A DNA stretch of 64,000 bases from Betaproteobacteria bacterium HGW-Betaproteobacteria-12 (GTDB lineage: Bacteria; Pseudomonadota; Gammaproteobacteria; Burkholderiales; Rhodocyclaceae). Under the pieces are notes generated by a model, which saw nothing but the letters and a program-made list of their open reading frames with translations, was not told the origin of the DNA and did not search any database. Position numbers and translations under genes: made by a program. Below are positions 19,146 to 38,231 of this stretch, piece after piece. How positions within the stretch are numbered: the first letter of the stretch is position 1; the number at the start of each line of letters is the position of its first letter. The stretch spans positions 22,737-86,736 of the forward strand of contig PHCU01000003.1 in the NCBI GenBank assembly GCA_002842345.1, given 5' to 3'.

Positions 19146-19161
19146 TGGCATGGCAATTGCT
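19146..19161 (+). promoter_or_regulatory. sigma-54 (-24/-12) promoter TGGCATG-GCAA-TTGCT
   Basis: One mismatch to TGGCACG-N4-TTGCW; 47 nt upstream of the cytochrome start at 19208. Confidence 0.75.
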
Positions 19162-19207
19162 ACGATGAGAAGAGTTTTTTTGCACATTGTTCACTGGCCT
19201 GGAATGC

Positions 19208-19546
19208 ATGAGTCCTTCGTGGATCTTCGCGCTGTTGTTGCTCCTGCCGTCGCTTGTCGATGCGGCGGAGCCGCGCAGGAAAAGCGGCGAGCACGCCAGC
19301 CTGCCGCTGAACGGCCGCGAAGTCTATGTCCGTTCCTGCGCCATGTGTCACTCGACCGGCGCCGGCGGGGCGCCGCGTCTGGGCAGTGGCGAGGATTGGG
19401 CGGAACGGGCGAAGAAGGGTCCGGCGGAATTGATGGTATCGGTCTTGCGTGGCAAGGGCGGCATGCCGCCGAAGGGCGGCAATGCCTCCCTGACGCGGGT
19501 CGAAGCCTATCTGGCGCTTGACTACATGTTGAATGTCGAGAAATAG
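19208..19546 (+). CDS. monohaem cytochrome c5-like protein
   Basis: Signal peptide; CAMCHSTGAGGAPRLG; GGMPPKGG. Confidence 0.9.
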   Translation: MSPSWIFALLLLLPSLVDAAEPRRKSGEHASLPLNGREVYVRSCAMCHSTGAGGAPRLGSGEDWAERAKKGPAELMVSVLRGKGGMPPKGGNASLTRVEAYLALDYMLNVEK

Positions 19547-19556
19547 TTTCCAGACG

Positions 19557-19621
19557 GGCTGCCGGGCGAAAGTACATCGAAACGTACTTGGTCACCTCCC
19601 TGAACACTTGTTCCGGTAGCC
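19557..19621 (+). ncRNA. candidate structured leader RNA (multi-stem)
   Basis: Hand fold: GGCTGCCGG/CCGGTAGCC closing stem, AAGTAC/GTACTT hairpin, GAAC-ACTT-GTTC hairpin; precedes a terminator and RBS. Confidence 0.45.
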
Positions 19622-19627
19622 ATTTGC

Positions 19628-19661
19628 CCGCAACCCGAGCAATCGGGTTGCGGTTTTTTTT
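19628..19661 (+). terminator. intrinsic terminator immediately upstream of the tetrahaem gene RBS
   Basis: CCGCAACCCGA-gcaa-TCGGGTTGCGG followed by a T-tract, then ACTGGAGTTGGG and ATG at 19681. Confidence 0.85.
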
Positions 19662-19680
19662 ACTGGAGTTGGGATTGTCG

Positions 19681-20391
19681 ATGCGAATTGCCCTGGCGCT
19701 GCTGCTGCTCGTCCCCCTTGCCGGACATCTGCGCGCGGCTGACATTCGCGCCACGCCGCATAACCTGGCGCAGCAGGGGGCGGCGGTCGAGGCCGAGGAA
19801 GTCTGCGTCTTCTGCCACACGCCGCAAATATCGGCCGACCTGGCCGCCCGCAGTTCGGTCAGCCTGCAGCCGGCCTGGCAGCCCTCGTTGTCCACCAGTC
19901 ATTCCTTCGTGATGTTCGACGACATTGGCCGCCTGCAATTCGGCGACAAGCCGGCGGTCGGCTCGCAATCGATCGCCTGCCTGTCCTGCCACGATTCAAA
20001 CCAGGCGTTTTCGGTCCAGGCGGCGGAGTCCGATCACCCGTTCGGCATCCCCTATCGGGGCTATTCCCGCGGCCGGGAAAGAACGCCGGACGAGATTGCC
20101 GCCGCGCGCAGCATGCCGTCGCGGCAGGCCAAGGAGTTGAAGGGGCTCGACGACTTTCGCCAGCCGAGCCGCGGGGTCGTCGACAATCGCACCGTCTGGT
20201 GGGTGTCGGCTTCCGGCGTGACGCCGTTCCGCACGCGCGCCGACCTGCCGTTGTATGCCCGTCCCCAGGCGGCCGGCGAAGTGCCGTTCGTCGAATGCAG
20301 CAGCTGTCATGATCCGCATGCCAGTAGCGCGTTGTTCCTGCGTGTGGATAATGCGGGCAGCCGTTTGTGCCTGACCTGTCATGACAAGTAA
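19681..20391 (+). CDS. tetrahaem c-type cytochrome
   Basis: Signal peptide; CVFCH, CLSCH, CSSCH, CLTCH. Confidence 0.9.
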   Translation: MRIALALLLLVPLAGHLRAADIRATPHNLAQQGAAVEAEEVCVFCHTPQISADLAARSSVSLQPAWQPSLSTSHSFVMFDDIGRLQFGDKPAVGSQSIACLSCHDSNQAFSVQAAESDHPFGIPYRGYSRGRERTPDEIAAARSMPSRQAKELKGLDDFRQPSRGVVDNRTVWWVSASGVTPFRTRADLPLYARPQAAGEVPFVECSSCHDPHASSALFLRVDNAGSRLCLTCHDK

Positions 20392-20414
20392 TCGTTAGAA
20401 AATTGGGGGTGGAT

Positions 20415-21569
20415 ATGCTTACCAAGCAAGAGAATTTCCCGGGCGTCACGGCCGTTTTGCTGGCCCTTGCCCTGGTGCTGGTCGGTGGCTGCGCCCCGGT
20501 GCAGGAACGTGCCGCGGCCGAGAAGGAGAGCTCGCTGATCTACCCACCGCCGCCGGATGAGCCGCGCTACGCCTACGAGCGCACCATCTACGGCAGTGCC
20601 GACGTGACGCCGCGCAACAAGGACGCGGCGCTCAAGCGTGCGCTGACCGGCGAACTGGAGACCTCGGAAGGCCTGGTCAAGCCCTACGCGGTGACCGTCC
20701 ATCGCGGGCGGATTTTCGTCAGCGACTCGGCCGACCGCTTCGTCAAGGTCTTCGACGTGCCGGAAGGCCGCTATTTCAAGATCGGCGATGACGAACGCGG
20801 GCCGCTGACCAAGCCGCTCGGCCTCGATGTCGATGCCGCCGGCAATCTCTTCGTTGCCGACGGCACGGCCAAGGTGATCATGGTCTACGACCGCAACGGC
20901 AAGTACCTGCGGCGGATCGGCGGGCCCAAGGTCTTCGAGCGCCTGTCGAGCGTCACTGTCGATGCCGCCGGGGGGCGCGTCTTCGTCACCGATATCGGCG
21001 GCGTTTCGTCCGATCAGCACAAGATCCATGTCTTCGACAGCAATAACGGCACGCACCTGTTCGATCTCGGCAAGCGCGGCATCGGGCCGGGCGAGTTCAA
21101 CCTGCCGCGCGACGTGGCGATCGGCAGCAACGGCCAGATCTACGTCGTCGATGGCGGCAATTTCCGCGTCCAGGTCTTCGACCGCAACGGCAAATTCATG
21201 ACCAGCTTCGGCTCGGTCGGCAAACAGTTGGGCAATTTTGCCCGGCCCAAAGAGATCGCCACCGATTCGGCCGGCAACGTCTATGTCGTCGATGCCGCCT
21301 TCGGCAACTTCCAGATCTTCACCGGCGACGGCGATCTGCTGATGTTCATCGGCGAACGCTCGGAGCGCGACGGGCCCGCCCGCTACATGCTGCCTTCGGG
21401 TATCTACGTCGATGAAGACGGGCGTGTTTACATGGTCGACCAGTGGTTCAAGAAGATCGACGTGTTCCGGCCGGCGGGCCTGCCGACCGAGGCCGGCTTC
21501 CTCAACAAGCGCGCCGTAGCCGCCGAGGCAGCGACGGGCGGCAAGGCCGGCGCCGCTTCCCGGCAGTGA
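20415..21569 (+). CDS. NHL-repeat beta-propeller lipoprotein
   Basis: Lipobox LVLVGGC; repeated VYVVDGGNFRVQVFDRNGKF units. Confidence 0.88.
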   Translation: MLTKQENFPGVTAVLLALALVLVGGCAPVQERAAAEKESSLIYPPPPDEPRYAYERTIYGSADVTPRNKDAALKRALTGELETSEGLVKPYAVTVHRGRIFVSDSADRFVKVFDVPEGRYFKIGDDERGPLTKPLGLDVDAAGNLFVADGTAKVIMVYDRNGKYLRRIGGPKVFERLSSVTVDAAGGRVFVTDIGGVSSDQHKIHVFDSNNGTHLFDLGKRGIGPGEFNLPRDVAIGSNGQIYVVDGGNFRVQVFDRNGKFMTSFGSVGKQLGNFARPKEIATDSAGNVYVVDAAFGNFQIFTGDGDLLMFIGERSERDGPARYMLPSGIYVDEDGRVYMVDQWFKKIDVFRPAGLPTEAGFLNKRAVAAEAATGGKAGAASRQ

Positions 21570-21590
21570 GAATATGCCGTTCCTGAGCGC

Positions 21591-21622
21591 GGGAAATTCC
21601 CGGAAATTTTCCGGGAATTCCC
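21591..21622. repeat. inverted repeat GGGAAATTCCCGGAAA/TTTTCCGGGAATTCCC
   Basis: Near-perfect 32-nt dyad 22 nt after the NHL gene stop; related to the TTCCCGG...GGGAA motif. Confidence 0.6.
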
Positions 21623-21689
21623 CTGTTAAATTTGTGGGATTGGCGCGGTAAATATTGTAAGTGCTTGATTGTAGGCGATAACGAATCTC

Positions 21690-21705
21690 TGGCATGTGAG
21701 TTGCT
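21690..21705 (+). promoter_or_regulatory. sigma-54 (-24/-12) promoter TGGCATG-TGAG-TTGCT
   Basis: One mismatch to TGGCACG-N4-TTGCW; 66 nt upstream of the tetrahaem start at 21771. Confidence 0.75.
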
Positions 21706-21770
21706 AATGTATGTTCGGTCGGGCCAATCGGCTCGTTCTTGATCAATCATTTATCGGTCGGGGGTATTAC

Positions 21771-22646
21771 ATGTCCAATCACACCAGGGAAGCACGAGGT
21801 CTCGCCGGGCTCGTGGTCAGGATGCTGGCAATTGCCGCATTCGCTCTCGGCGCCGCCGGGGCGCATGCCGGCATCGCCAACACCAAGCACAATCTCGGCG
21901 CCGACAACGCCACCAACGAAAACTTCATGGGTGCGGGCGGCACGACGGAAATCTGCGTCTTCTGCCATACGCCGCACGCCTCCAACACCAACGTTACGGC
22001 GCCCTTGTGGAACAAGCCGGTGGCGGCGGGTGCCAGCTACACCACCTACACGACGGCGACCTCGGCGACCATCGAAGGCTCGGTCGACATGTCCGGCATC
22101 TCGCTGGCCTGCCTGTCCTGCCATGACGGCACCCAGGCCATGGACACCATGATCAACCGCCCGGGTTCCGGTGGCTACAACGCTGCCGGTGCGGTAACCG
22201 GTGGCACCTGGAACGGCGCCCGCCAGAGCAACGGTCAGCTGATCAATGCCGGCGAATTCATCGCCAATCTGGGCACCGACCTGAGCAACGATCACCCGGT
22301 CGGTATTCAGTACTGCGGCGGCGGCATCTCCACCGGCGGCGCGTCCACCACGGATGCTTCTTCCGGTACCTGCCGCGACGGCGACTTCAATGCCCCGCAG
22401 AACGGCCTGATCGGCGGCCATCGTGCCTGGTGGGTGGATACCTCGGCCGGTGCGGCCGGTACCCGCCAGAAGACCGACATGGTCCTCTACGCCCGTGCTC
22501 CGGTGCTGGCCGGCGATGCCACCAGCGGCCAGTTCCAGCCCTTCGTCGAATGCGCCAGCTGCCATGATCCGCACAGTGAAAACCCGACCTTCCTGCGCGT
22601 CCCGAATACGCAAAGCGCGGTCTGTCTGGCATGTCACAACAAGTAA
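21771..22646 (+). CDS. tetrahaem c-type cytochrome
   Basis: CVFCH, CLSCH, CASCH, CLACH; signal peptide after MSNHTREARG; paralogue of 19681-20391. Confidence 0.92.
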   Translation: MSNHTREARGLAGLVVRMLAIAAFALGAAGAHAGIANTKHNLGADNATNENFMGAGGTTEICVFCHTPHASNTNVTAPLWNKPVAAGASYTTYTTATSATIEGSVDMSGISLACLSCHDGTQAMDTMINRPGSGGYNAAGAVTGGTWNGARQSNGQLINAGEFIANLGTDLSNDHPVGIQYCGGGISTGGASTTDASSGTCRDGDFNAPQNGLIGGHRAWWVDTSAGAAGTRQKTDMVLYARAPVLAGDATSGQFQPFVECASCHDPHSENPTFLRVPNTQSAVCLACHNK

Positions 22647-22682
22647 GTAATAGTTGCGGGTAACCGCACTAGTTCTGGCAAT

Positions 22683-22718
22683 CGGGCCGGCCCGCAAGGT
22701 GTTCGGCCCGTTTTTTTT
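22683..22718 (+). terminator. intrinsic terminator immediately upstream of ppiC-like gene RBS
   Basis: CGGGCCG...CGGCCCG followed by TTTTTTTT, then CTGGAGGTAG and GTG at 22733. Confidence 0.8.
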
Positions 22719-22732
22719 CTGGAGGTAGTCAC

Positions 22733-23791
22733 GTGAGCAATTATTCCCGAGCCTGCTATCGCCTTGGCATTGCCCTGCTGGCGGTGCTTCCCGGTTTGCC
22801 GATGGTCCATGCCCAGGCGGCCGTCAATCCGGAAACGCCGGCCGTCGCCGCCCAGCAACCCGAAGCAGCCGTGCGCAAGGACGCCCACGACAGCGTCTTC
22901 GCCGTGATCAACGGGCGTGCGGTGCCGACCTCGGACTACGAAATGGCCTTCACCACCCTGGTCCGCCAGCGCTTCTATCACGGGCAGATCCCGGAGAACG
23001 AACTGGCGGCGGTGCGCGAGGAAATCAAGAACAAGCTGGTACAGCGCATCGTGCTGCTCGAAGAAGCCCAGCGCCGCAAGATCGTGGCGGATGAGGCACA
23101 GATCGAGGAAACGCTGGCCGGTTACGAGAAGCGCTATACCAACAGCCCGCAATGGCAGCAAAATCGCCAGATTCTGTTGCCCGAGCTGCGCAAGCAGCTG
23201 GCCGAACAGAGCCTGATTGCGCAACTGGACAAAGCGGTGCGCGATCTGCTGGCACCCACCGATGACGAGGTCCGTGCCCATTACGACCAGCATCCCGAAT
23301 TGTTTACCGAGCCGGAGAAGCTCCGTCTGTCGGTGATCCTGCTCGCCGTCGATCCGTCTTCGCCGGCGACCGCCTGGCAGGGCACCCGCGAGGAAGCCAA
23401 GGCCATCTACGGCCGGCTGATGAACGGTGCCGATTTCGACGAGGCGGCCCGCCTGCATTCCAGCGTCAATGCCGACAAGAGCGGCGACATGGGCTACCTG
23501 CACCGCGGCATGATTCCCGAGCTGATCCAGAAGAAGATCGATGAGTTCGAGGTGGGCAAGATCAACCCGCCGATGGATACCCTCGAAGGGGTGGCCATCT
23601 TCCGCCTGGCCGATCGTCTGCCGGCGAAGAAGCGCGAATTTGCCGACGTCGCCACGCGCGCACGGGAATTGCTGGTACGTGAGCGTCAGGATACCGCCTG
23701 GAAAACCTTGATCGAAGGCCTGGTGGCCAAGGCTGACGTCAAGTTCATGCACGCAGCCTCATCCGAGCTGCGTGAGGGAGTCACCAAGTAG
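22733..23791 (+). CDS. PpiC/SurA-type periplasmic peptidyl-prolyl isomerase
   Basis: Signal peptide; parvulin features (LLAVDPSSP..., ADFDEAARLHSS, GDMGYLHRGMIPE). Confidence 0.9.
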   Translation: MSNYSRACYRLGIALLAVLPGLPMVHAQAAVNPETPAVAAQQPEAAVRKDAHDSVFAVINGRAVPTSDYEMAFTTLVRQRFYHGQIPENELAAVREEIKNKLVQRIVLLEEAQRRKIVADEAQIEETLAGYEKRYTNSPQWQQNRQILLPELRKQLAEQSLIAQLDKAVRDLLAPTDDEVRAHYDQHPELFTEPEKLRLSVILLAVDPSSPATAWQGTREEAKAIYGRLMNGADFDEAARLHSSVNADKSGDMGYLHRGMIPELIQKKIDEFEVGKINPPMDTLEGVAIFRLADRLPAKKREFADVATRARELLVRERQDTAWKTLIEGLVAKADVKFMHAASSELREGVTK

Positions 23792-23811
23792 TCATAGCGG
23801 TTTCATCGAAG

Positions 23812-26352
23812 GTGGGCAAGCAAGGTACTGCGCGTTCGCGTCTTTCCGGCTCCAGTTACCTCATTGCGGGTCTGGCGGGCGGGGCATTGGCCCTGGCGCC
23901 TGCTGCCTTTGCCAGCGAAGCGGTCGTTCCCGGCGCTTTGCCACCGCTGCGCGAAAGCGTCAGCGCCGTGCAGTCGGCCATCGCTGATCTGGCGACCGCG
24001 CAGGCCGCCGAGCGCCAGGCGACGGTGGTCTCCGGGGTGCTCGGCGAGCAGCTGCTGCTCGCCGAAGACCCGGCCGATGCTCCGGCCAGCGGCGAAATCT
24101 ATCCGGACTTTTTCTCGGAAGTGGTAACGCCGGCCCCGCCGCCGCTCAAACTCGCCCTGACGCTCAGCGCACCCTTGCCGGGCGGCCTGCAACCACGCTG
24201 GCTGGAGGCGACCGAGCCGATGCTGCCGTTGCGCGCCTCGTTCGATTTGGCCTCGCCACTGCTGGCGCCGGCCGAGCTTGGCGACACGGAACCCTTGCCG
24301 CCCGCGGACCCGCCACTCAAGCTGGCGCAGATGCTGGTCATGCCGCCGCCGGGCGGTAGCCAGCCGCGCTGGATGACGACGCCGACGCCGACCACCCGCC
24401 TGCGTCCGTCGCGCGAGCTGTCGCCGCAATTGCCGGGCGCCGCCGGTATCGGACGTCCAGATCGGCAGCCGGCGCCATTGCCCGATCCGGCGGCAGCCAT
24501 GCCGCTTGCTGAAGGCGAAGTCGATGGCGAACAGCCGGTTGCCGCCGTCACCCCGGTGCCGGCCGCCAGCACCACCCCGGGGGCTGGCGCGGCGCCTGAC
24601 ACCTCCGGCCTGCTCGGCTGGGAGATACCGCCGATCCGCTGGGGCGGCCAGCTCGGCTACTCCTATCAGCGCAGTTCGACCAATACCGGCAGTTCCTCGG
24701 CTTCGCACGGGATGTTCGGCAACCTCAGTGCCGCCAGTTACATCTACGCCCCCTGGTTCGCCCGCGTCAGCGGCCGCCTCGGCCTCACCCGGTCGACCAG
24801 CAACAGTAGCAGCGAGGGTGGCGACCAGTCGAACAGCAACGTCAACGTCGTCGGCGGCGGTGAAGTCAACATGTTCTCCAGCAGCCGCTTCCCCTTCCGC
24901 GTCTATTACGACCGCGCCGACACCCGGGCCAGCGGCACCATCGTCAGCAACGACTACATCAGCAACAGCTTCGGCTTCAACCAGAACTTCCGCTCGGAAG
25001 ACGGCATGAAGAACGGCAACCTGATGTTCGATCGTAACGTCGTCGATAGCTCGGACGGCCAGCGCGATGCGGTCTCGTCCCTGTCGGGGAGCTACTCGGC
25101 CCAGGTCGGCATCGTCCAGAACAATCTCAATGGCCGCTATTCGCTCGGCGAGCGCAGCACTACCGGCGACCGGGCGCGGCTGATCGGGCTGAATTCCTCG
25201 CATATCGCCAATATCAGCGACACCTTGAATCTCGGGGCGACGGCGAACTACTCGGATACCGATATCCGCACGGCCAGCGGTTTCGGCGAGGCGGTGAGCA
25301 GTCGCGGCCGCTTCCTGCAGCTCTACGGCTACGGCTCGTGGCTGCCCGATTTCGAAGATCTCGACGACCTGCCGCTGACGATCAACGGCGGCATCCGCTA
25401 TTCGGCCCAGGACACGCAGTTCGGCGGCGAAGCCTTCCGTGCCCAGACCCTGGGCATCAATGGCGGGGCCCTCTACCGGCACAATCGCAATCTGTCGCTA
25501 TCGGCCAATGGGGCGGTGAACCGCTTGACGCAATCGAGCGGCGAAAGCCAGGTACTGACCCAGCTCGGCAGCTCGGTCAATTACGTCGGCGACCCTCTCA
25601 CTTTCGGGAATTTTTCTTATAACTGGAATACCGGCCTCGATCTGAACTGGCAAAGCGCCGCTGCCGAGACGCCGTCCAACACCCTGGTCGGCGGCCAGTT
25701 CAATCATTCCCTGTCGCGCATCTATAGCGTCTTCGGCGGCCAGAGCCTGTCGCTGGCCGCCACCCAGACGGTGAACGCCAACAACAGCCAGCTGGTCGGC
25801 AGTACCCAGTCGCTCAGCCACTCGCTGTCGGCCAATCTCAGCCTGGGTGGCGGCGACCGCTTCTCCGGCTCGGCCAGCGCCATGCTCTCCGATGTGCGGA
25901 CGAGCGGCTTCCTGGAGCAGGAATACCGGGTGGTCAATCTCGGTTTCTTTGGTCAGGGGCAGCTTTCGCAGGTTTCCAACCTGAATCTGAACATGATGTT
26001 CAACTGGTCGGACCAGACCTTCCAGACCGTCGATGCCTTCGGTTTTCCGGTCAACCAGAATACCGAGCGGATGACCGTCAACGGCTCTGCCGCCTACAGT
26101 CACCTGCGCTTCGCCGGTGTCCGCGGCCTGCGCTACAACCTGATCTTCGCCGCCGACACGCGCCTGCGCGACGAGCGCCTGTTCGGCAACGTGAATGGCG
26201 ACGTGGACCGCGCCCGCTTCTCGCTGACCAATCGCCTCGAGTACCGCATCGGCCTGCTCGATTTCCGCCTTTCGCTGATCAACAACGAAGTGGGTGGCAA
26301 GAAAAATGCTCTGCTCTTTTTCCAGGTATCCCGGCAAATCGGTTCCTACTAG
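23812..26352 (+). CDS. outer-membrane beta-barrel (putative porin of a porin-cytochrome conduit)
   Basis: 846 aa, long run of alternating amphipathic strands rich in S/N/Y/G; Pro-rich N-terminal repeats; flanked by multihaem cytochromes. Confidence 0.75.
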   Translation: MGKQGTARSRLSGSSYLIAGLAGGALALAPAAFASEAVVPGALPPLRESVSAVQSAIADLATAQAAERQATVVSGVLGEQLLLAEDPADAPASGEIYPDFFSEVVTPAPPPLKLALTLSAPLPGGLQPRWLEATEPMLPLRASFDLASPLLAPAELGDTEPLPPADPPLKLAQMLVMPPPGGSQPRWMTTPTPTTRLRPSRELSPQLPGAAGIGRPDRQPAPLPDPAAAMPLAEGEVDGEQPVAAVTPVPAASTTPGAGAAPDTSGLLGWEIPPIRWGGQLGYSYQRSSTNTGSSSASHGMFGNLSAASYIYAPWFARVSGRLGLTRSTSNSSSEGGDQSNSNVNVVGGGEVNMFSSSRFPFRVYYDRADTRASGTIVSNDYISNSFGFNQNFRSEDGMKNGNLMFDRNVVDSSDGQRDAVSSLSGSYSAQVGIVQNNLNGRYSLGERSTTGDRARLIGLNSSHIANISDTLNLGATANYSDTDIRTASGFGEAVSSRGRFLQLYGYGSWLPDFEDLDDLPLTINGGIRYSAQDTQFGGEAFRAQTLGINGGALYRHNRNLSLSANGAVNRLTQSSGESQVLTQLGSSVNYVGDPLTFGNFSYNWNTGLDLNWQSAAAETPSNTLVGGQFNHSLSRIYSVFGGQSLSLAATQTVNANNSQLVGSTQSLSHSLSANLSLGGGDRFSGSASAMLSDVRTSGFLEQEYRVVNLGFFGQGQLSQVSNLNLNMMFNWSDQTFQTVDAFGFPVNQNTERMTVNGSAAYSHLRFAGVRGLRYNLIFAADTRLRDERLFGNVNGDVDRARFSLTNRLEYRIGLLDFRLSLINNEVGGKKNALLFFQVSRQIGSY

Positions 26353-26404
26353 TTTCAGCTAGCGGTCCGGCCGACCAGCGCATAAAAAACCAAGAGGATG
26401 TGTA

Positions 26405-26824
26405 ATGAAAATACTCTCGAAACTGAGGGCAAGCATTGCGGTCTCCGTCATCATGATTTTCTCGGCGGTGCTGTTCGTCGACATCAATGAAGCCCGGGCC
26501 GAATACGGGGATGTCGTCATCAACAATTACTCCGACGCTGCGGGCATGCGCCCGGTCGTCTTCCCGCACTGGTTCCACCGTATCCGCTTCCGCTGCAAGG
26601 TCTGTCACGCCGACCTCGGCTTCAAGTTCCAGGCCGGCGGCAACGAAATCAACATGGTCAAGATCATCGACGGCCAGTTCTGCGGCGCCTGCCACAACGG
26701 CGATATCGCCTGGTCGGTCGAAAACTGCAACCTCTGCCACTCGGCCAATCCGAAGACCCCGACGCAGGTGCATGAAAGCACCGTGCAGAAGCTGGTGCAG
26801 CCCACCGGCACTCCGAAGAAGTGA
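26405..26824 (+). CDS. trihaem c7-type cytochrome (type A)
   Basis: CKVCH, CGACH, CNLCH; PVVFPHWFHRIRFRCKVCH. Confidence 0.9.
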   Translation: MKILSKLRASIAVSVIMIFSAVLFVDINEARAEYGDVVINNYSDAAGMRPVVFPHWFHRIRFRCKVCHADLGFKFQAGGNEINMVKIIDGQFCGACHNGDIAWSVENCNLCHSANPKTPTQVHESTVQKLVQPTGTPKK

Positions 26825-26835
26825 GGGAGGCCGCC

Positions 26836-27849
26836 ATGAAAATATCCAACAAGTTCGTCGCCGCCACCGTCGCCCTGCTGCTCGCCGCGCCGGTTATCGC
26901 CCAGCAGTCGGGCAAGGATGTCTACACCAAGGTCTGCGCCACCTGCCACGCCACCGGCCTGGCCGGCGCGCCGCGCTACGGGAATGGCGCCGACTGGGCG
27001 CCGCGTGTCGCCACCGGCCTGCCGGCGCTCTACCAGAGCGCCCTGAAGGGCACGCCGAAGGGCATGCCGGCCAAGGGCGGCCATTTGACCCTGCCCGATG
27101 GCGAAGTGAAGGCGGCCGTCGATTACATGCTGGCCTCGGTCAAGGGGGCGGTGAAGGTCGCCGAGCCGAAGAAGGCCGAAGAAGCGAAGGAAGCGAAGGA
27201 AGTCAAGGAGCCGAAGAAAGCCGAGGCCAAGCCGGCCCCGGTTGCCGCCGCGCCGGCCCCGGCTGCTGCGCCGGCCCCGGTACGGGCCGCGTCGCCGGCT
27301 CCGGTCGCCCAGACGACGGCCAGCGGCGAAGACATCAACTCCTTCAACCGGCTGCTGAAGCCGGCCAGCAAGCGCAACCTGCCGCCGCCCGAGGATGGCA
27401 TCCACGATCCGGCCAACGACGGCACGCATGCCCTGCAGCCACCGCTCGCCGCCTTCGCCAGCTTGCCGAAGAGCATGTCCGGCAACCGCATCAACTGGGT
27501 CGAGGCGCTGGGCCAGAAGAAGATCAATCCGCGTTACGACCGGGTCGATCCCAAGGCTGAGCCGATCGTCATGGACCTCAACATCGTCCGCGAGGTGAAG
27601 GGCTCGATGCCGGACGTCGTCTATCCGCACAAGCAGCACACCGAGTGGCTGGACTGCTCCAACTGCCACCCGGCCATCTTCGTGCCGCAGAAGGGCGCCA
27701 ACCAGATCAGCATGGCCGCCATCCTGCTCGGCGAGAAATGCGGTGTCTGCCATGGCAAGGTGGCCTTCCCGGTATCCGAGTGCCGGAACTGCCACTCGAA
27801 GAAGAAGGAAATGGCGCGCAGCCCGGCGCCGGCCGCCGCCGCCAAGTGA
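26836..27849 (+). CDS. chimeric cytochrome: c5-like domain, Lys/Glu/Ala/Pro linker, trihaem c7-like domain (type B)
   Basis: CATCH then CSNCH, CGVCH, CRNCH; low-complexity linker. Confidence 0.88.
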   Translation: MKISNKFVAATVALLLAAPVIAQQSGKDVYTKVCATCHATGLAGAPRYGNGADWAPRVATGLPALYQSALKGTPKGMPAKGGHLTLPDGEVKAAVDYMLASVKGAVKVAEPKKAEEAKEAKEVKEPKKAEAKPAPVAAAPAPAAAPAPVRAASPAPVAQTTASGEDINSFNRLLKPASKRNLPPPEDGIHDPANDGTHALQPPLAAFASLPKSMSGNRINWVEALGQKKINPRYDRVDPKAEPIVMDLNIVREVKGSMPDVVYPHKQHTEWLDCSNCHPAIFVPQKGANQISMAAILLGEKCGVCHGKVAFPVSECRNCHSKKKEMARSPAPAAAAK

Positions 27850-29810: not shown

Positions 29811-29819
29811 GGAGACGAC

Positions 29820-30758
29820 ATGCCTGGACTCAATGATGCGCGCCGGCGCTGGCTGAAGGGCCTGGCCGCCGCGCCGCTGCTCGGCCTGGCCCCCGGCCTG
29901 TCGCGCGGCGAAAGCCGGCACCTGCTGGCCGGCCGGGTGTATATGGGCAGCCGGGTCGTCCAGCGGGCCAATCCAGCCGGATTCCCGGATCCGAGAACGG
30001 GCGGCATCAGCCCGCCGGTCCAGTTCGTCTTTCCCGTCGCCGTTGCCGCCACCGCCGGCGGCGACATCTTCATCGCCGATGCCGGCCTGGGCACCATCTT
30101 CCGCCTCGATCCGATGCAGGACACGATGCGCGCCATCGCCGGCATCCGCGCCAGCCAGCAGACGCGCCTGGCGGCGACGGCCGACGGTTCGCTGGTTGTC
30201 GCCAGCGGCAGCGCCGCGCCGGTGGCGCGCTTCGATCGCACCGGCCGGCTGGTCCAGTTCGTCAATCCGCTGCCCGGTGCCGGTACCCACTACGATGAAG
30301 TCGCGGTCGATGCGGCGAGCGGCCGCTACTACGGCCTGGACAAGGTCCAGCGCCGGCTCGAGGAAGTCATGCCGCACGGCCAGGGCGCCGTCCTGGTGCC
30401 GCAGCAACTGGTCCCCGAACTGCCGACGGCGATGGCCATGGCCGATGGCAAGCTGTACATCGCCGGCCGTTCCTGCCAGTGCCTGGCCGCCATCGAGGTG
30501 TTCGGCACGCGCCAGGTCGAAGTGATCGCCGACGATGTCACCCAGGTCATCGCCCTGGCCGCCGGCGACGGCTGGCTGGCCCTGCTCGATGGCCGCGAGC
30601 GCCTGCTCAAGCTGTGGCACAAGGGGGCGCTGCTGGTCGACAGCGAATTTGCCGGCCTCGGCCTGGTCGATCCGCGCGGCCTGGCCATCACCCAGCAGAC
30701 GCTCTATGTCGCCGATGGCGCCAGCCGCCGCCTGCTCAGTTTCCGCCTGCGCCCATGA
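29820..30758 (+). CDS. beta-propeller (NHL-like) protein with Tat-like leader
   Basis: ARRRWLKGLAAAPLLGLAPGLSRG leader; repeated FIADAGLGTIFRLD / LYVADGASRRLLSF units. Confidence 0.75.
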   Translation: MPGLNDARRRWLKGLAAAPLLGLAPGLSRGESRHLLAGRVYMGSRVVQRANPAGFPDPRTGGISPPVQFVFPVAVAATAGGDIFIADAGLGTIFRLDPMQDTMRAIAGIRASQQTRLAATADGSLVVASGSAAPVARFDRTGRLVQFVNPLPGAGTHYDEVAVDAASGRYYGLDKVQRRLEEVMPHGQGAVLVPQQLVPELPTAMAMADGKLYIAGRSCQCLAAIEVFGTRQVEVIADDVTQVIALAAGDGWLALLDGRERLLKLWHKGALLVDSEFAGLGLVDPRGLAITQQTLYVADGASRRLLSFRLRP

Positions 30759-31837
30759 AGCTGCTCGGCGTCCTGCTCCTCAGCCTGCTGCTCGCCGGCT
30801 GCGCCTCCGAGCCGCTGGTCATGCGCTTCGATCCGGGTCGCGTCAATACCAGTCAGAAACTCTATTTCCCGCCGCTCGACGACGAGGAAGTGCCGCGCTA
30901 CGTCTACGTCGGCGAACTGACCGGCGAACTGAATTTCGTCGATAAGGAAGGCACCGAGAAGAACCGCTTCGTCGAGGCGCTGAAATGGATCGCCGGCATG
31001 TTCGAGGTGCAGAACCCGCTGGTGCTGCAGCGGCCGCAATCCGGCGTGGTCGACGAAAACGGCCGGATTCTGGTCACCGATGTCAGCCGCTCGGCGGTGT
31101 TCGTCTTCGATGCGCCCAACGGCCGTCTCGATCTCTGGGAATTCGCCCAGGGTTTTCGCCGCTTCCAGGCACCGACCGGCATCGCCCTCGGGCCGGCCGG
31201 CCGGGTTTTCGTCGCTGATGCCGACCTCGCCCAGGTCTATGTCCTCGATCCCGAGGGCAAGGGTACGCTGCTGATCGACCGCGACCAGCTGAGCCGGCCG
31301 ACCGGCCTGGCCTGGGATGCCGCCGAGGGCCTGCTCTACGTTGCCGACACGCAGGCGCACCAGATCAAGGTCTTCGACGCCACCGGCCGGCTGCTGCGGA
31401 GCATCGGCCAGCGCGGCGAAGGGCCCGGCGAATTCAATTTCCCGACCTACCTGAGCCTGGCCGGCGACCGCCTGATCGTTTCCGACACGATGAACGCCCG
31501 CATCCAGCTGATCCCGCTCGACGGCGCCGGCGCGCCGGAAATTCTTGGCGAACGCGGCACCAAGCTCGGCAACCTGGTGCGGCCGAAAGGCGTCGCCGCC
31601 GATTCCGAGAACAATATCTACGTGATCGAGTCGTACTACGACCACTTGCTGATCTTCGACCGACAGGCCCGCTTTCTGCTTCCGATCGGGGGAGCAGGCA
31701 AGGAGGCCGGGGCTTTCTATTTGCCGGCTGGCGTCTGGGTTGACAGGGGAAATCGGGTGTTTGTGGCGGATACGTTCAATGGTCGGATTGCAGTGTTTCA
31801 ATTTCTCGGCGGGGGCGTAGAAAATGACAGCCAGTAG
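30755..31837 (+). CDS. NHL-repeat beta-propeller lipoprotein
   Basis: Lipobox LLLAGC; NHL repeats; paralogue of 20415-21569. Confidence 0.88.
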   Translation: MKLLGVLLLSLLLAGCASEPLVMRFDPGRVNTSQKLYFPPLDDEEVPRYVYVGELTGELNFVDKEGTEKNRFVEALKWIAGMFEVQNPLVLQRPQSGVVDENGRILVTDVSRSAVFVFDAPNGRLDLWEFAQGFRRFQAPTGIALGPAGRVFVADADLAQVYVLDPEGKGTLLIDRDQLSRPTGLAWDAAEGLLYVADTQAHQIKVFDATGRLLRSIGQRGEGPGEFNFPTYLSLAGDRLIVSDTMNARIQLIPLDGAGAPEILGERGTKLGNLVRPKGVAADSENNIYVIESYYDHLLIFDRQARFLLPIGGAGKEAGAFYLPAGVWVDRGNRVFVADTFNGRIAVFQFLGGGVENDSQ

Positions 31838-34448
31838 CCTGCGTCGCTGGCGGCGGCTGTGGCAATTGGCCGGCCTCAGCCTCTTCGTCGTTTTCCTCAG
31901 CCTGCGCTACGGCCTCGAACCGGTGCAGGCCGCCCGTGTCTCCGATATCCGCGGTACCAAGCACAACCTGTCGGCCGCCGCCGACGGCTCCGGCTATACC
32001 CACCCGACGGCCGGCGGCGGCACCGTGCCGGCGCGCAACATCAAGGCCACGGCGGAAACCCAGCTCTGCGTCTTCTGCCATACGCCGCACGGCGCGGCAA
32101 CCGGCGCCACGCCGCTGTGGAACCGCAAGCTGGCCGGCGCCGGCTACACGCAAAGCTATGTGCTGTACGACTCCAACACCCTCGACGCCAAGCAGGTGCA
32201 GGGTTCGCTCGAACAGCCCGGCGGCAGTTCCAAGCTCTGCCTGTCCTGTCATGACGGCACAGTGGCGGTCGGCAACGTCAATGTGCTGAACGGCACCGCC
32301 CCCAGCCCCAATCCGACGACGACCAGCACCATCGCCACCACCGGCGGCCCCAACATGCCGGTCGGTTCGGGGGCGAGCACCGGTTTCACGCGCAATCTCG
32401 GCACCGACCTGAGCAACGACCACCCGATCTCGATTTCCTATAACGACGCCCTGGTCTTCCGCGACGGCGAGTTGCGCTCGCCGACCATCAATCCGACGCT
32501 GGTCGGCGTGCGCAGCCCGGGCAACAAGCCCAAGCTGAAGCTGGAGAATACCGGCACGCCCGGTCCCAACCAGGCCCAGGTGCAGTGCGCCACCTGCCAC
32601 GATCCGCATATCCGCGAAACCGACGCCAGCAAGGGCAACCAGAAGTTCCTGCGCCTCAACCGCTTCCAGGAAAAGCAGCACTCGGTGGCACCGGCCGCCT
32701 TCGATCCGGCCGACAACACCGGCGACATCATCTGCCTGGGCTGCCACGACAAGGCCGGTGCTTCCTGGCTGTTCTCCGCCCATGCCCATCCGCAGGTCGC
32801 CGACGAGACCTACAAGGCGGCCGCCACCACCCAGCGCGAATTCCCGGCCAACCTGCCGGTGTGGAAGGCCGCCTGCCTCAACTGCCACGACACGCATACC
32901 GTGCAGGGCGCCCGCCGCCTGCTGCGCGAGGGCACCGACAGCATCTCGTCGCCAAAGGCCGGCGGCAATCCGGCGCTCGAACAGGTCTGTTACCAGTGCC
33001 ACACGACGACGGCGGCGAGTGCCGTGACCACGGTCTCCGGCGGGGCCCCCGACATCGCGACGGATTTCAACCTGGCCCGGCGCATGCCGATCACCGTCGG
33101 CACGCCGGAAGTGCACGATCCGAACAGCACCGCCAACCTGACCGCCTTCAACCTCGACTGCAGCCAGGCCGGCACGCAGTGCGGCAAGGACCTGATCGAA
33201 TCGCGGGAAAACCTCGGCCTGAATAATCTGAGCAACCGTCATGCCGAATGCACCGACTGCCACAATCCGCACCGCGTCATCCGCGCCCGCAACGGCCTGC
33301 CCGGGGCGCTGACCGCGGCCAATACCCAGGATACGATGCAGAACGGCGCCAGCGGCGGCGCGCACAATCACCTCAATGCCGCCGGCTTCGTCCACAACAA
33401 TGTCATTTCCGGCGTGCTGCGCGGCAGCTGGGGCGTCGAGCCGACCTATGGCTCGGCCAGTTTCCACGCGCTGCCGACCGGCTACACCGTCAAGCGCGGC
33501 GATCCCGGCACCAGTACGGCGACCGATGCCGCCCAGCCCTACGTCACCCGCGAATACCAGATCTGCCTGAAGTGCCACTCCGATTTCGCCTACTTCGACG
33601 ACAACGTCTATCCCAGTGGCGGCTCCCGGCCCTTGCTCGGTGCGCCGGGGACCTCGGCCAATTCCAACGGCCATACCAATTTCACCCGCTACACCAACCA
33701 GGCGAAGGAATTCCAGGCGCCGGCGGCGCACGCGGTGCCGGTGGGCAGCGTCAGTCTGGGCAACGCCGGGGGAACCGGCACGGCGGCCTCGAACAATAAC
33801 AATCACCGCTCCTGGCACCCGGTGATGGCGCCGACGGGCCGGACCAACCGTGCCGGGTCCTGGATCGCCCCCTGGAACAACTCCGGCACCGGCGGTCAGG
33901 CCGGGCGGCTGGGTGTCCAGACCATGTACTGCACCGACTGCCACGGCTCGAACGTCACTTCCACCACCTCGGTGATACCCGACACCGGCAAGCCCTGGGG
34001 GCCGCACGGCTCGGCCAACAACTTCCTGCTCAAGGGCGGATGGGATACCAGTTCCGGCGAAGGCAGCAGCAACACGCTGTGTTTCAAGTGCCATAGCGCG
34101 AGCGCTTACTCGGGGGGCGGCGGCACCGGTTTCAGCACGGACAAGGGCGATGGCCACAGCGTGCACTCCGACAGGATCGACACGCAGATGAAGTGTAACT
34201 TCTGCCATGTGGCCGTCCCGCATGGCTGGAAAAATCGCGGCTTGCTGGTCAATCTGCTCGATGTCGGGGCCGAGGCCGGCCTGGCACCGGGTACCGCGGT
34301 ATCCTTGCCCTATACCAACGGACCCTACTATCGCCGGGCCTATCTGCGGGTGATTTCCTTTCCGGCCGCCGGTGCGCAATGGCGGGAATCGAATTGCAAC
34401 GGCGGCAGCAAAGACACGATGAAGAGCAATTGCGAGAACGCTACCTGA
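31824..34448 (+). CDS. undecahaem (11 CXXCH) c-type cytochrome
   Basis: CVFCH, CLSCH, CATCH, CLGCH, CLNCH, CYQCH, CTDCH, CLKCH, CTDCH, CFKCH, CNFCH; N-terminal signal/anchor. Confidence 0.93.
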   Translation: MTASSLRRWRRLWQLAGLSLFVVFLSLRYGLEPVQAARVSDIRGTKHNLSAAADGSGYTHPTAGGGTVPARNIKATAETQLCVFCHTPHGAATGATPLWNRKLAGAGYTQSYVLYDSNTLDAKQVQGSLEQPGGSSKLCLSCHDGTVAVGNVNVLNGTAPSPNPTTTSTIATTGGPNMPVGSGASTGFTRNLGTDLSNDHPISISYNDALVFRDGELRSPTINPTLVGVRSPGNKPKLKLENTGTPGPNQAQVQCATCHDPHIRETDASKGNQKFLRLNRFQEKQHSVAPAAFDPADNTGDIICLGCHDKAGASWLFSAHAHPQVADETYKAAATTQREFPANLPVWKAACLNCHDTHTVQGARRLLREGTDSISSPKAGGNPALEQVCYQCHTTTAASAVTTVSGGAPDIATDFNLARRMPITVGTPEVHDPNSTANLTAFNLDCSQAGTQCGKDLIESRENLGLNNLSNRHAECTDCHNPHRVIRARNGLPGALTAANTQDTMQNGASGGAHNHLNAAGFVHNNVISGVLRGSWGVEPTYGSASFHALPTGYTVKRGDPGTSTATDAAQPYVTREYQICLKCHSDFAYFDDNVYPSGGSRPLLGAPGTSANSNGHTNFTRYTNQAKEFQAPAAHAVPVGSVSLGNAGGTGTAASNNNNHRSWHPVMAPTGRTNRAGSWIAPWNNSGTGGQAGRLGVQTMYCTDCHGSNVTSTTSVIPDTGKPWGPHGSANNFLLKGGWDTSSGEGSSNTLCFKCHSASAYSGGGGTGFSTDKGDGHSVHSDRIDTQMKCNFCHVAVPHGWKNRGLLVNLLDVGAEAGLAPGTAVSLPYTNGPYYRRAYLRVISFPAAGAQWRESNCNGGSKDTMKSNCENAT

Positions 34449-34500
34449 CCGTCCGCCACGGTCGACTTGATCCACCACTCAAGCCCGACTATCCCTTGCC

Positions 34501-35469
34501 ATGAAGCCTTGGATTCTCGCCCTGGCCTCGCTGAAACTGACGCCGGTGGGGCTGCTGCTCCTCGGCGCGGCGTCGATTGCCGTCTACCAGGTGGGCGACA
34601 GCGCCACGCCCTGGCTGGCCGGCCCGCTGCTGCTGCTGGCGCTCAACCTGATCGCCGCCGTCTCGACCAATGTCATCTTCCGCCGCCAGATGCCGCTGCT
34701 GGTCTTCCACCTGGCCCTGATCGCGCTGGTGCTGCTGGCTGCCGCCGGCCGTCTCACTTACCTGAACGGCGCGGCCAGCGTCACCGAGGGCGAGGCCTTT
34801 ACCGGACTGTGGAAACAGGTGGCCGGGCCCTTGCACAACGGCCGGCTGGCCGAGGTCGACTTCGTCAACGAAGGCTTCGACATCCGCTACAAGCCGGGGC
34901 CGGTGCGCGACCTGACGCTGAACCGCGTCCGCTGGACCGATGGCGCCGGCCAGGTCCGGAGCGAGGAGATCGCCGACAACCGCCCGCTCATCGTGCATGG
35001 TTACCGCTTCTATCCGAGTTCGAACAAGGGCTTTGCCCCGGTGTTGCTGTGGGAGCCGAAGGCCGGTGAACCGGTGCTTGGGGCCATTCATCTGCCCAGC
35101 TATCCGGTCAATCGCTTCGAGCAGGCCAGGGAATGGCGGCCGGCCGGGGCCGGCAGCGATATCTGGGTGATGCTCGACATTCCGGAAGAACTGATCCCGG
35201 CCGATCAGTTTTCCCGTTTCCGGCTGCCCGACAAGCACAAGCTGGTGCTGCGCCAGGGCGAGCAGCGATGGGAACTGCAACTCGGCGAGCGGGTCAGCTT
35301 GCCGGAGGGCAATGTCGAATATGTGGAATTGCGCACCTGGATGGGGTACATCGTCTTCTACGACTGGACGATCACCTGGATGCTGTCGGCGTGCGTCGTG
35401 GCGATTCTCAGCATAGGCTGGCATTTCTGGCGCAAGTTCATGGCCAAACCGTGGGACAAGGATAAGTAG
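34501..35469 (+). CDS. ResB/Ccs1-like cytochrome c biogenesis protein (compact)
   Basis: TM-periplasmic-TM architecture; VRWTDGAGQVRSEEIADNRPLIVHGYRFYPSS; followed by ccsA-like gene. Confidence 0.75.
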   Translation: MKPWILALASLKLTPVGLLLLGAASIAVYQVGDSATPWLAGPLLLLALNLIAAVSTNVIFRRQMPLLVFHLALIALVLLAAAGRLTYLNGAASVTEGEAFTGLWKQVAGPLHNGRLAEVDFVNEGFDIRYKPGPVRDLTLNRVRWTDGAGQVRSEEIADNRPLIVHGYRFYPSSNKGFAPVLLWEPKAGEPVLGAIHLPSYPVNRFEQAREWRPAGAGSDIWVMLDIPEELIPADQFSRFRLPDKHKLVLRQGEQRWELQLGERVSLPEGNVEYVELRTWMGYIVFYDWTITWMLSACVVAILSIGWHFWRKFMAKPWDKDK

Positions 35470-35475
35470 TCTTTT

Positions 35476-36288
35476 ATGGAATTCGAACTGAAACTGTTGT
35501 GGTCGGGGATCGTGCTCTACGTGCTCGGCGGCTCGCTGGCAATCGCCGGCGTGATCCTGCGCAAGCGCCCGGAAAAGACCATCCTGGGCCTGATCTTCGC
35601 CGGCTGGCTGCTGCATACGGCCGCCTTGACCGTGCGCTGGCTGCGCCTCGATCATGGACCCTTCATCACCATGTTCGAGATCCTCTCCAGCAATGTCTGG
35701 AGCCTGGTGCTGGCCTTCATGATCGCCTTCTGGCGTATCCCGCTGATCCGGCCCTCGGCCGCGGTGATGATGCCGATCCTCTTCGTGATGATGGGCTGGC
35801 TGGTCCTCTCCAGCCCCGGCGAGGCGCATTTCCCGCAATCCTTCCGGACGCCATGGCTGTTCATCCATATCGGCTTCGGCAAGGTCTTCCTCGGCGCGGC
35901 GCTGGTGGCGGTCGGCCTGGCCTGCGTGATCCAGTTGCGCCGACTGGCCGTCGGTCAGCGCTGGTTCTACAGCCTGCCGGACGATAGCCGCCTGGATGAG
36001 CTGAGCTATCGCCTGATGGCCCTGGGCCTCGTCTTCAATAGTCTGATGCTGGTTGCCGGAGCGATCTGGGCGCAGGATGCCTGGGGCCGCTACTGGGCCT
36101 GGGATCCGCTCGAGACCTGGGCCTTCCTGACCTGGCTGATGCTGGCCATCTCCCTGCATTTGCGCGTTACCTTCAAATTGTCGCCGCGGGCGGCGTCGGT
36201 GATGGCGGTCGCTGTGTTCGTCCTCGCCTTCCTGACCTTCTTCGGTATGCCTTTTGTGTCGACGGCCCCGCACAAGGGGGCGGTGTGA
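35476..36288 (+). CDS. ccsA: CcsA/CcmC-family cytochrome c assembly protein
   Basis: WWD-type motif WAQDAWGRYWAWDPLETWAFLTWL; 8-TM-like. Confidence 0.85.
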   Translation: MEFELKLLWSGIVLYVLGGSLAIAGVILRKRPEKTILGLIFAGWLLHTAALTVRWLRLDHGPFITMFEILSSNVWSLVLAFMIAFWRIPLIRPSAAVMMPILFVMMGWLVLSSPGEAHFPQSFRTPWLFIHIGFGKVFLGAALVAVGLACVIQLRRLAVGQRWFYSLPDDSRLDELSYRLMALGLVFNSLMLVAGAIWAQDAWGRYWAWDPLETWAFLTWLMLAISLHLRVTFKLSPRAASVMAVAVFVLAFLTFFGMPFVSTAPHKGAV

Positions 36289-38231
36289 CGCTGCCGTTGC
36301 CGGAGGAATTGGCGGCGACCAGCCGCCGCCTGGCCCGTGCCTGGTTCGCCCTGGCCCTGGGCGCGCTCGGCGCCTCGGCGCTGCTGGCCATCGTCCTGGT
36401 GGCGGCGCGCACGCCGCTGCTCGGGCTGGGTGGCGGCTTCTTCCGCACCGCCCTGGTCCTGCATGTCAATTTCGGCGTCGTCGTCTGGTTTCTCGCGGCC
36501 GCGGCCGGCGTCTGGACCCTGCTGTTGCAGCGCGCCGGCGGCGCTGGCTGGGGCTGCTTCATCCTGGCCCTGCTGAGTGTCGTGGCGCTGGTGCTGTCGC
36601 CCTTCATCGGCGGCCCGCCGCCGGTGCTGGCCAACTACCTGCCGGTGCTCGACAGCCCGATCTTTCTCGGCGGCCTGGCCGGTTTCCTGGTGGCCATCCT
36701 GGCTGCCGGCCTGCTGTCGCTCACCGGCGGCTGGCAGCGCCCCATCACGCCGCCACACCAGGCCGCCCGCTGGGCGGTGTTTGCCATGCTGGTGGCCGGC
36801 CTGGTGTTCCTCATCGACCAGCAGCGGGCGGCCAACGCCAGCCTGGTGCTACCGGTCACCCTCGATGACCAGTTCTGGGGCGTCGGCCATTTGCTGCAGT
36901 TCGTCCATAACCTGCTGATGATGGCCGCCTGGCTGGTGCTCGGCCAGCGCTTCACGGCGGCAGTGCCCGGTCTGCAGCGAGGGGTTCCCTGGCTCTTGGC
37001 GCTGACCGGCCTGGCGACCCTGGGTGGCGTCTGGTTCTCGCTGCACGAGGCGGTCGGCAGCGCCGGCCACCGCCTGGGCTACACCGATCTGATGCGCTGG
37101 GCCACCTGGCCCGGACCGCTGCTGCTCGGCAGCGGCCTGTTGCTCGGGGCCTGGCGGCTGCGGCGGGCGGCCGGCGGCTGGCAGTCGGGCGAGCTCGGCC
37201 TGCTGGCTTCGATGGCCTTGTATGCCTTCGGCTGCATCGTCGGCGCCACCATTCAGGGGCATGCCTCGACCTCGGTGCCGGCCCACTACCACGGCACGAT
37301 CGGCGCGGTGACCCTGGCCTATCTGCTGCTGGCCGTGCGCCATGCGCCCGATTTCGGGCTGGCCCTGGCCAGCGGCCGCTGGTCAGGCCGCTTGCCCCTG
37401 CTTTATGGACTGGGTATTGGCGTCCTGGTGGCCGGGCTGGCCTGGTCGGGTTTTCAAGGCGTCCCGCGCAAGGCGCCGCACGTCGAACTGATGCAGAGTG
37501 AGCCGGCCTACCTGGCAGCGATGACGCTGGCCGGGCTGGGCGGCTTCCTGGCGCTGGCGGCGATTCTGCTGCTGGTCGGCTGGTTCCTCGCCGGCTGGTT
37601 GCGCGCTCCCGTCGCCGTGGCGGCGAACAAATCCCGGCTGCCGCGTGACGTACGCTACCGCGCCATGGCCATTACCGCGCTGCTGATCGTGGTCGGTGGG
37701 CTGGCCGTCGAGTATCTGCCCAAGCTGCCGACCATTGGCGGGATGCGGGCCGATGGCCACGTGGCGGAAAAGCAGCGCAAGGAAATCGCCATGCGCTTTT
37801 CGCAAGGCGTGGTGATGCTGCACGCCAAGGAGTACGACCATGCCCTGGTCGCCTTCCATCGGGTCATCGAATTGGCGCCGCAGATGCCCGAGGCCTATGT
37901 CAATACCGGTTTTGCCCTGCTGGGTCTGGGGCAATATGCCGCCGCCCGGGATTTCTTCGATGAAGCCACCAACCTGCGGCCCAACCAGATGAACGGCTAT
38001 TACGGGCTGGCCCTGGCTTTGGAGGGAACGGGCGATACTTTCGGCGCCATGCAGGCCATGGAAACCTATCTGCACCGGGCCGCCGCGGACGATCCTTATC
38101 GGCCGAAGGCGGCGACGGCGGTGGGGAAGTGGCGGGCCAAGCTGGAGGCGGAACAAATGTCGGCGGCTAAACCAGCCACCGGCAAGGCGAACAAAGGCAA
38201 AGCCGGCCAGGCGAAAGAAGCGCAGCCTTAG
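36285..38231 (+). CDS. haem-copper-oxidase subunit I-like membrane protein fused to C-terminal TPRs
   Basis: Polytopic; HVNFGVVVW, FWGVGHLLQFVHN, GHASTSVPAHYHGTIGAV motifs; TPRs YVNTGFALLGLGQYAAARDFFDEATNLRP; GTG start overlaps ccsA stop. Confidence 0.65.
   Translation: MTLPLPEELAATSRRLARAWFALALGALGASALLAIVLVAARTPLLGLGGGFFRTALVLHVNFGVVVWFLAAAAGVWTLLLQRAGGAGWGCFILALLSVVALVLSPFIGGPPPVLANYLPVLDSPIFLGGLAGFLVAILAAGLLSLTGGWQRPITPPHQAARWAVFAMLVAGLVFLIDQQRAANASLVLPVTLDDQFWGVGHLLQFVHNLLMMAAWLVLGQRFTAAVPGLQRGVPWLLALTGLATLGGVWFSLHEAVGSAGHRLGYTDLMRWATWPGPLLLGSGLLLGAWRLRRAAGGWQSGELGLLASMALYAFGCIVGATIQGHASTSVPAHYHGTIGAVTLAYLLLAVRHAPDFGLALASGRWSGRLPLLYGLGIGVLVAGLAWSGFQGVPRKAPHVELMQSEPAYLAAMTLAGLGGFLALAAILLLVGWFLAGWLRAPVAVAANKSRLPRDVRYRAMAITALLIVVGGLAVEYLPKLPTIGGMRADGHVAEKQRKEIAMRFSQGVVMLHAKEYDHALVAFHRVIELAPQMPEAYVNTGFALLGLGQYAAARDFFDEATNLRPNQMNGYYGLALALEGTGDTFGAMQAMETYLHRAAADDPYRPKAATAVGKWRAKLEAEQMSAAKPATGKANKGKAGQAKEAQP

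Follow-up and report, generated by a model that had tools for sequence, protein, structure and literature searches.

The Uet complex of Candidatus Tenderia electrophaga, as summarized in a pangenome study of the Gallionellaceae, comprises the undecahaem cytochrome UetJ, the extracellular tetrahaem cytochrome UetA and the trihaem cytochromes UetD, UetE and UetG, together with the isomerase UetB, the NHL proteins UetH and UetI and the porin UetC (PMC10734462). The same survey distinguishes Uet from PCC3 in the Gallionellaceae. For Ca. Tenderia, a 2017 paper described a TPR gene, an undecahaem gene and three trihaem genes whose locus numbers lie close together (Tel_16515-16545); at the cathode the trihaem genes belonged to those with the strongest expression (PMC5371394). 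UetJ and its porin are also encoded by genomes of the Leptothrix group (PMC13386937), and an undecahaem cytochrome of the Mn-reducing Ca. Dechloromonas occultata is cited in a 2026 paper (PMC13264449). Here we analyze a 17-gene cytochrome operon in a 64,000-nucleotide stretch of DNA (the window) from the freshwater Betaproteobacteria bacterium HGW-Betaproteobacteria-12 (contig PHCU01000003.1, positions 22,737 to 86,736), which a preliminary description had presented as a complete porin-cytochrome conduit. The undecahaem cluster of Ca. D. occultata is referred to here as Occ.

The operon probably encodes a trans-outer-membrane electron conduit of the already named Uet/Occ kind, a reading to which we assign a probability of roughly 80%. 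Genes g4-g14 correspond to uetA-J, as far as the survey sets these out, in content, order and haem counts, with one extra trihaem gene (g11); the ordered set of tetrahaem cytochrome, peptidyl-prolyl isomerase, porin, trihaem cytochromes, UetF, two NHL proteins and undecahaem cytochrome is thus present in the window. The 11 haem motifs of the UetJ type are found in g14, and content and order also parallel the trihaem-TPR-trihaem-undecahaem run of Ca. Tenderia. Uet and Occ are probably the same cluster, the Occ match being made by the undecahaem feature alone. An undecahaem cytochrome in a cytochrome-rich cluster also occurs in the Dechloromonas relatives L001 and L003. That the operon is an outer-membrane conduit, as proposed earlier, is well supported by the conserved gene set, the barrel model and a total of 33 haems. 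The further suggestion of a poorly described variant was a reasonable one, but a name for the kind already exists.

Several points weigh against this assignment. Uet was recognized from the gene content and order given in the summary of that system, and the link to Occ runs through a single feature. Localization, complex formation, polymerization and electron direction are predictions from genes and models. Furthermore, matches to CcoN (cbb3 oxidase) stayed below the cut-off in the 95%-complete genome.

The 17 open reading frames (ORFs) are all on the + strand (19208-38231) and free of internal stops, and the Pfam and NCBIfam (TIGR) profile searches of the window proteins agree with the labels first given to them. 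The matches include class-I c, paired-CXXCH, c7/TIGR04257, NHL, PpiC, ResB, CcsB and TPR domains. CXXCH motifs number 1, 4, 4, 3, 4, 3, 3 and 11 in the successive cytochromes, and the haem total rises to 39 once a divergent arm is added. Besides cytochromes the operon encodes a PpiC foldase, a large outer-membrane barrel, three beta-propellers and cytochrome-c maturation proteins. Seven close relatives (L001-L007), among them Dechloromonas hankyongensis and HGW-Betaproteobacteria-7, were recruited with the barrel protein as query. Synteny was based on tblastn, because gene calls by the longest ORF were led astray by antisense ORFs in some loci. The gene order of the whole operon was identical in all seven relatives, which is far beyond chance.

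The conserved unit extends to the left to about 12994 and to the right, via ccmFGHI, to about 43770. In the divergent arm the triple-domain class-I cytochromes cA and cB (17022-19065, - strand) are kept in 7/7 close relatives and the PAS/GGDEF/EAL regulator in six (L001-L006), at the same place and with 54-80% identity. The downstream order ccmF-G-H-I, Tll0287-like gene, TlpA-like gene was found in the four relatives checked (L098-L101). Because arm and ccm block are both conserved, the true unit exceeds the box drawn in the preliminary description; all genes listed there are present, but its extent was too small and g1 and g2 turned out to be separated by a terminator. The most likely starts are ATG 19208 for g1 (by eye) and ATG 19681 for g2. 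A promoter scan gave no more sites than shuffled sequences. The features of the unit are as follows.

12994-16929, - strand: PAS/GGDEF/EAL regulator at the end of the divergent arm; domains read from the sequence, position conserved.
17022-18005, - strand: cA, secreted, three class-I domains, 3 CXXCH, GTAM/TSMP-type Met motifs in two domains (Pfam Cytochrome_CBB3 x3).
18028-19065, - strand: cB, secreted, three class-I domains, 3 CXXCH, Met motifs (Pfam).
19208-19546, + strand: g1, monohaem c5-like cytochrome (Pfam Cytochrome_CBB3, 2e-12).
19547-19661, + strand: conserved structured RNA of 115 nt with P1 hairpin, exposed ACCUCCCUGA loop and intrinsic terminator with T8; kept in L001-L006.
19681-20391, + strand: g2, second OmcE-like tetrahaem cytochrome (PDB 7tfs, E 4e-14).
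20403-21569, + strand: g3, NHL beta-propeller lipoprotein (Pfam NHL, 2e-22; lipobox LVGGC).
21711-22646, + strand: g4 = UetA, OmcE-like tetrahaem cytochrome (PDB 7tfs, E 1.5e-24).
22733-23791, + strand: g5 = UetB, PpiC/SurA-type peptidyl-prolyl isomerase (Pfam Rotamase_2, 6e-13).
23812-26352, + strand: g6 = UetC, 846-aa outer-membrane beta-barrel with a low-confidence Pro-rich N-terminal region (AlphaFold2 model).
26405-26824, + strand: g7 = UetD, trihaem c7 (TIGR04257, 1e-17).
26821-27849, + strand: g8 = UetE, chimera of class-I c and trihaem c7, 4 haems (Pfam, TIGR04257).
27900-28826, + strand: g9 = UetF, helical TPR-like secreted protein, placed like the Ca. Tenderia TPR gene Tel_16525 among trihaem genes; a Pfam search returned no family.
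28801-29433, + strand: g10 = UetG, trihaem c7 (Pfam C7, 6e-12).
29430-29810, + strand: g11, extra trihaem c7, paralogue of g7 (Pfam C7, 3e-15; 65% identity to the g7 orthologue).
29820-30758, + strand: g12 = UetH, beta-propeller with Tat-like signal RRRWLKG (NHL, 2e-5).
30755-31837, + strand: g13 = UetI, NHL beta-propeller lipoprotein (Pfam NHL, 9e-29).
31824-34448, + strand: g14 = UetJ, undecahaem cytochrome; OmcE-like tetrahaem domain (residues ~37-312) plus heptahaem extension.
34501-35469, + strand: g15, ResB-like (Pfam, 1e-11).
35476-36288, + strand: g16, CcsA/CcsB haem-handling protein, motif WGRYWAWDP (TIGR03144, 3e-38, below cut-off).
36285-38231, + strand: g17, haem-copper-oxidase subunit-I-like membrane domain fused to a TPR domain (profile, AlphaFold2, Foldseek).
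38434-42635, + strand: ccmF-ccmG-ccmH-ccmI block adjoining the operon (CcmF_C, 1e-125).

The distribution of the system was surveyed with a barrel profile against 369 genomes from 272 genera of the class. The profile matched 36 genomes from 29 genera, every match with E <1e-38, which gives the Uet/Occ kind a measured distribution in the class. Within the family of the window the porin was found in 8 of 121 genomes and was absent from two genomes of the same genus, so the operon is an accessory trait. Gene order was checked in 20 of the loci (L059-L078). In nearly all of these the succession tetrahaem, PpiC, barrel, c7, c5/c7, helical protein, c7, propeller, NHL, 11-haem, ResB, CcsA, TPR recurred; the deviations were a sub-threshold PpiC in two loci, a missing UetJ in one, and loci that lay at contig edges or were without ResB/CcsA. 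The recurrence of ResB-CcsA-TPR indicates that these genes belong to the wider Uet kind, and maturation genes were linked to uet loci repeatedly, among the 20 class loci as well as in four close relatives. The Uet/Occ kind can thereby be given a well-defined larger gene set, in which ResB, CcsA and the TPR protein join A-J and ccm genes lie nearby. The locus without UetJ (L077) has no undecahaem gene between NHL and ResB, after which follow a TlpA-like gene, a CcmA-like gene and ccmF. In other uet loci there are nearly identical UetJ copies in tandem, a second UetJ-like start or an extra five-haem OmcE-like gene (L042 6494-11650; L075 18983-20000; L078 16407-17216).

Sequence searches of Pfam, NCBIfam and the PDB with UetC gave no match. 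An AlphaFold2 model built from ten homologues contained some 28 long strands between residues 276 and 844, mostly at a predicted local distance difference test (pLDDT) score of 70-95. The N-terminal 270 residues were of low confidence, and a confident barrel started only at residue 271. Comparison with the PDB by Foldseek returned many outer-membrane barrels, and the top template modelling (TM) score among the matches listed was that of MtrB of the Mtr complex (0.39/0.49, E 8e-9). The structure comparison proposed earlier for the 846-aa protein favors an outer-membrane barrel, but with a predicted TM (pTM) score of 0.48 its closure and size are approximate.

In PDB sequence searches g2, g4 and the front of g14 matched only 7TFS and 9YUQ. 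The former is the Geobacter nanowire OmcE, where the next subunit supplies a His ligand to one haem (PMC12954529). The profile of g14 matched 7TFS with an E-value of 1e-27 over profile positions 20-260 (hmmsearch). Both g4 and the front domain of UetJ keep the four CXXCH histidines plus four more (KHN, CHTPH, NDHP, CHxxH), while in g2 the His of CHTPH is replaced by Gln (CHTPQ) in 7/7 orthologues. In all 17 four-haem UetA-type proteins checked the C-terminus lies two residues past the last CXXCH, as in OmcE; UetJ continues past this end with seven more haems, and its 11 CXXCH motifs are invariant in 12 homologues. At the level of sequence, the tetrahaem proteins g2 and g4 and the first third of UetJ are homologous to the OmcE nanowire subunit, with a pairwise identity of about 30%; this is homology and not proof of polymerization. 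A full-text literature search, which did not cover the original Uet paper, identified no link between OmcE and Uet, Dechloromonas or Tenderia. We tentatively propose, with more doubt than confidence, that UetA polymerizes like OmcE and that UetJ, its end blocked by the seven-haem extension, caps or anchors the filament at the UetC pore. If so, conduit-plus-wire systems would be widespread in Gammaproteobacteria beyond the classic metal reducers. With the pore, an OmcE-like subunit and an OmcE-domain fusion encoded together in one operon, the attachment of a nanowire to a conduit becomes testable.

The RNA between g1 and g2 has a long hairpin with an exposed CCUCCC loop and a perfect 11-bp terminator (19628-19653, then T8), so that simple co-transcription of g1 with the other operon genes is unlikely. 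Its fold reached a z of about -5 in four sequences, with two-sided changes at 4 pairs. Among the 121 family genomes the sole strong full-length match was the window itself; a weak match in genome G712 lies 4.5 kb upstream of its uetC, which is the same relative place. Strong full-length matches in related genomes were confined to the uet locus. An Rfam search gave no family at gathering score; its hits, anti-hemB (E 0.016) among them, all stayed sub-threshold. A riboswitch-type antiterminator was rejected since the pairing is not conserved, with almost none in L001 and L004. The element is possibly an sRNA (small RNA) or a regulated terminator.

In the mechanism that we propose, UetC would form the pore and UetJ, as an 11-haem wire, would carry electrons through it or sit at its mouth. 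UetA, which the OmcE-like front end of UetJ may contact, would function extracellularly and might form a polymer there. Folding, docking or assembly of the surface cytochromes may be the task of PpiC and the propeller lipoproteins. Across the periplasm, trihaem c7 proteins that the TPR-like UetF holds in an array would relay electrons to the His/Met class-I haems of g1, g8, cA and cB and from there to the respiratory chain. Haem attachment would be carried out by ResB, CcsA and the membrane-anchored TPR protein with the neighboring ccmFGHI.

Other conduit classes share parts of this design. The preliminary description had likened the operon to the PCC3 type of Fe(II)-oxidizing betaproteobacteria, and the same host group and the combination of a barrel with multihaem cytochromes speak for that view. 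A PCC3 system requires a periplasmic cytochrome of 21-27 haems as well as an inner-membrane protein with five helices and two HX13H motifs; the largest cytochrome of the operon has 11 haems, and its only membrane proteins are ResB, CcsA and g17. Together with the separation of the two systems in the Gallionellaceae survey (PMC10734462), this refutes PCC3 on gene content and leaves it hardly any probability. The analogy drawn to Omb-Oma-Omc fails likewise. Those conduits combine an octahaem periplasmic Oma with a 12-haem Omc, and no 8- or 12-haem gene is present in the operon; the set instead matches uetA-J. An MtrAB/PioAB system is also out on gene content: g6 has no TIGR03509 match. The sole TIGR03509 match of the genome is on contig C291 (12000-24000), where a separate MtrB/PioB-family porin (E 4e-101) adjoins cytochromes with 10 and at least 8 haems and represents a second conduit. 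As the localization of the cytochromes is predicted only, they could also be a periplasmic redox buffer next to a barrel with an unrelated transport role. This is very improbable, given that nearly all 20 distant loci place the barrel after the tetrahaem/PpiC pair and before the trihaem run and that the tetrahaem proteins are homologous to an extracellular filament protein.

For the haem-copper-oxidase-like/TPR fusion that had been noted for g17, a relationship to oxidase subunit I is borne out, yet the Cu_B site is largely lost. Pfam on g17 alone gave only TPR; a profile of 15 homologues matched Thermus ba3 subunit I (E 5e-10), in agreement with the fold of the AlphaFold2 model and with Foldseek. 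His 60, 202, 334 and 336 are invariant, and the membrane domain resembles ba3 in fold and haem ligands. Where ba3 has its HH pair (GFHHQ) and the tyrosine of GHPINY, the g17 family carries residues other than His or Tyr, and only one of the three Cu_B histidines (His 202) is kept. The loss of the other two means that g17 is probably no oxidase. A thirteenth hydrophobic helix (457-480) before the TPR part would place the latter in the periplasm, which, with the position after ResB and CcsA, makes a role in haem attachment, like that of the TPR part of CcmI, likelier than oxygen reduction. A working terminal oxidase, which would make the operon a self-contained Fe(II):O2 pathway, draws on the ba3 homology and the kept haem ligands; it is highly improbable in view of the altered Cu_B and Tyr positions, of the only recurrent partners of g17 in uet loci being ResB, CcsA and the TPR part, and of the many uet loci with a TPR protein minus the oxidase-like domain. 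Besides the window, L007 and four further genomes of the order carry the fusion. The remaining six close relatives apparently encode the oxidase-like domain as a neighboring gene of its own. Stand-alone subunit-I-like proteins without the Cu_B His pair (L045 9493-10938, L048 and similar) form an uncharacterized family, of which the L045 member adjoins a complete oxidase operon including a cytochrome b/ferredoxin/FlpD protein.

Electrons could in principle move through the Uet/Occ conduit in either direction, with a slight lean to electron uptake or oxidation of Fe(II) or solids in this organism. By analogy, and as far as the sources report on them, Ca. Tenderia and Gallionella would point to uptake and Ca. 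D. occultata to metal reduction. The genome encodes a RuBisCO large chain and one NapC/CymA-type gene; NarG matches were below the cut-off. An outward conduit, in which electrons pass from quinol via a CymA/NapC-type protein and the trihaem cytochromes to UetJ/UetA and on to Mn(III/IV) or Fe(III), is quite possible, if somewhat short of even odds. It is in line with the undecahaem cytochrome cited for Mn-reducing Ca. D. occultata, with the NapC/CymA-type gene and with PpcA-like trihaem proteins and OmcE homologues being typical of metal reducers. Arguing against it are the reported link of Uet genes to cathode-oxidizing Ca. Tenderia and Gallionella, the RuBisCO gene and the His/Met class-I haems, which suggest a high-potential partner. 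The NapC-type gene lies near a 947-aa molybdopterin oxidoreductase that is below the NarG cut-off (C186 48214-55087).

Elsewhere in the window a fifth trihaem nanowire_3heme cytochrome overlaps a response-regulator gene (10256-10867 and 10864-11907, - strand); a relative of this cytochrome sits near a g9-like gene in L007. A Tat-exported high-potential iron-sulfur protein adjoins a SPASM-domain protein (5654-7568, - strand).

The Uet/Occ kind was known already; what is added here is how far the unit extends, its kinship with OmcE, the finding that g17 has lost most of its Cu_B site, and a new RNA element. Compared with Uet as summarized for Ca. Tenderia, the window additionally has the c5-like gene, the upstream tetrahaem and NHL genes, one extra trihaem gene, the oxidase-like domain fused to the TPR protein and the divergent triple-domain cytochromes. 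The undecahaem cytochrome of Occ comes from a closely related host genus. The tetrahaem unit of Geobacter sulfurreducens OmcE (7TFS) is homologous to that of the window proteins, with which it shares the His pattern and the C-terminal end; the seven-haem extension belongs to UetJ, and polymerization, known for OmcE, would be a prediction for the window proteins. Thermus ba3 subunit I differs from g17 in its Cu_B His pair and Tyr and in not being fused to TPR. PCC3 has the barrel and multihaem cytochromes in common with the operon, which lacks its large periplasmic cytochrome and five-helix inner-membrane protein. MtrAB/MtoAB/PioAB share the large-barrel conduit idea, and MtrB has the top TM score among the PDB matches listed; the operon has no decahaem MtrA partner.

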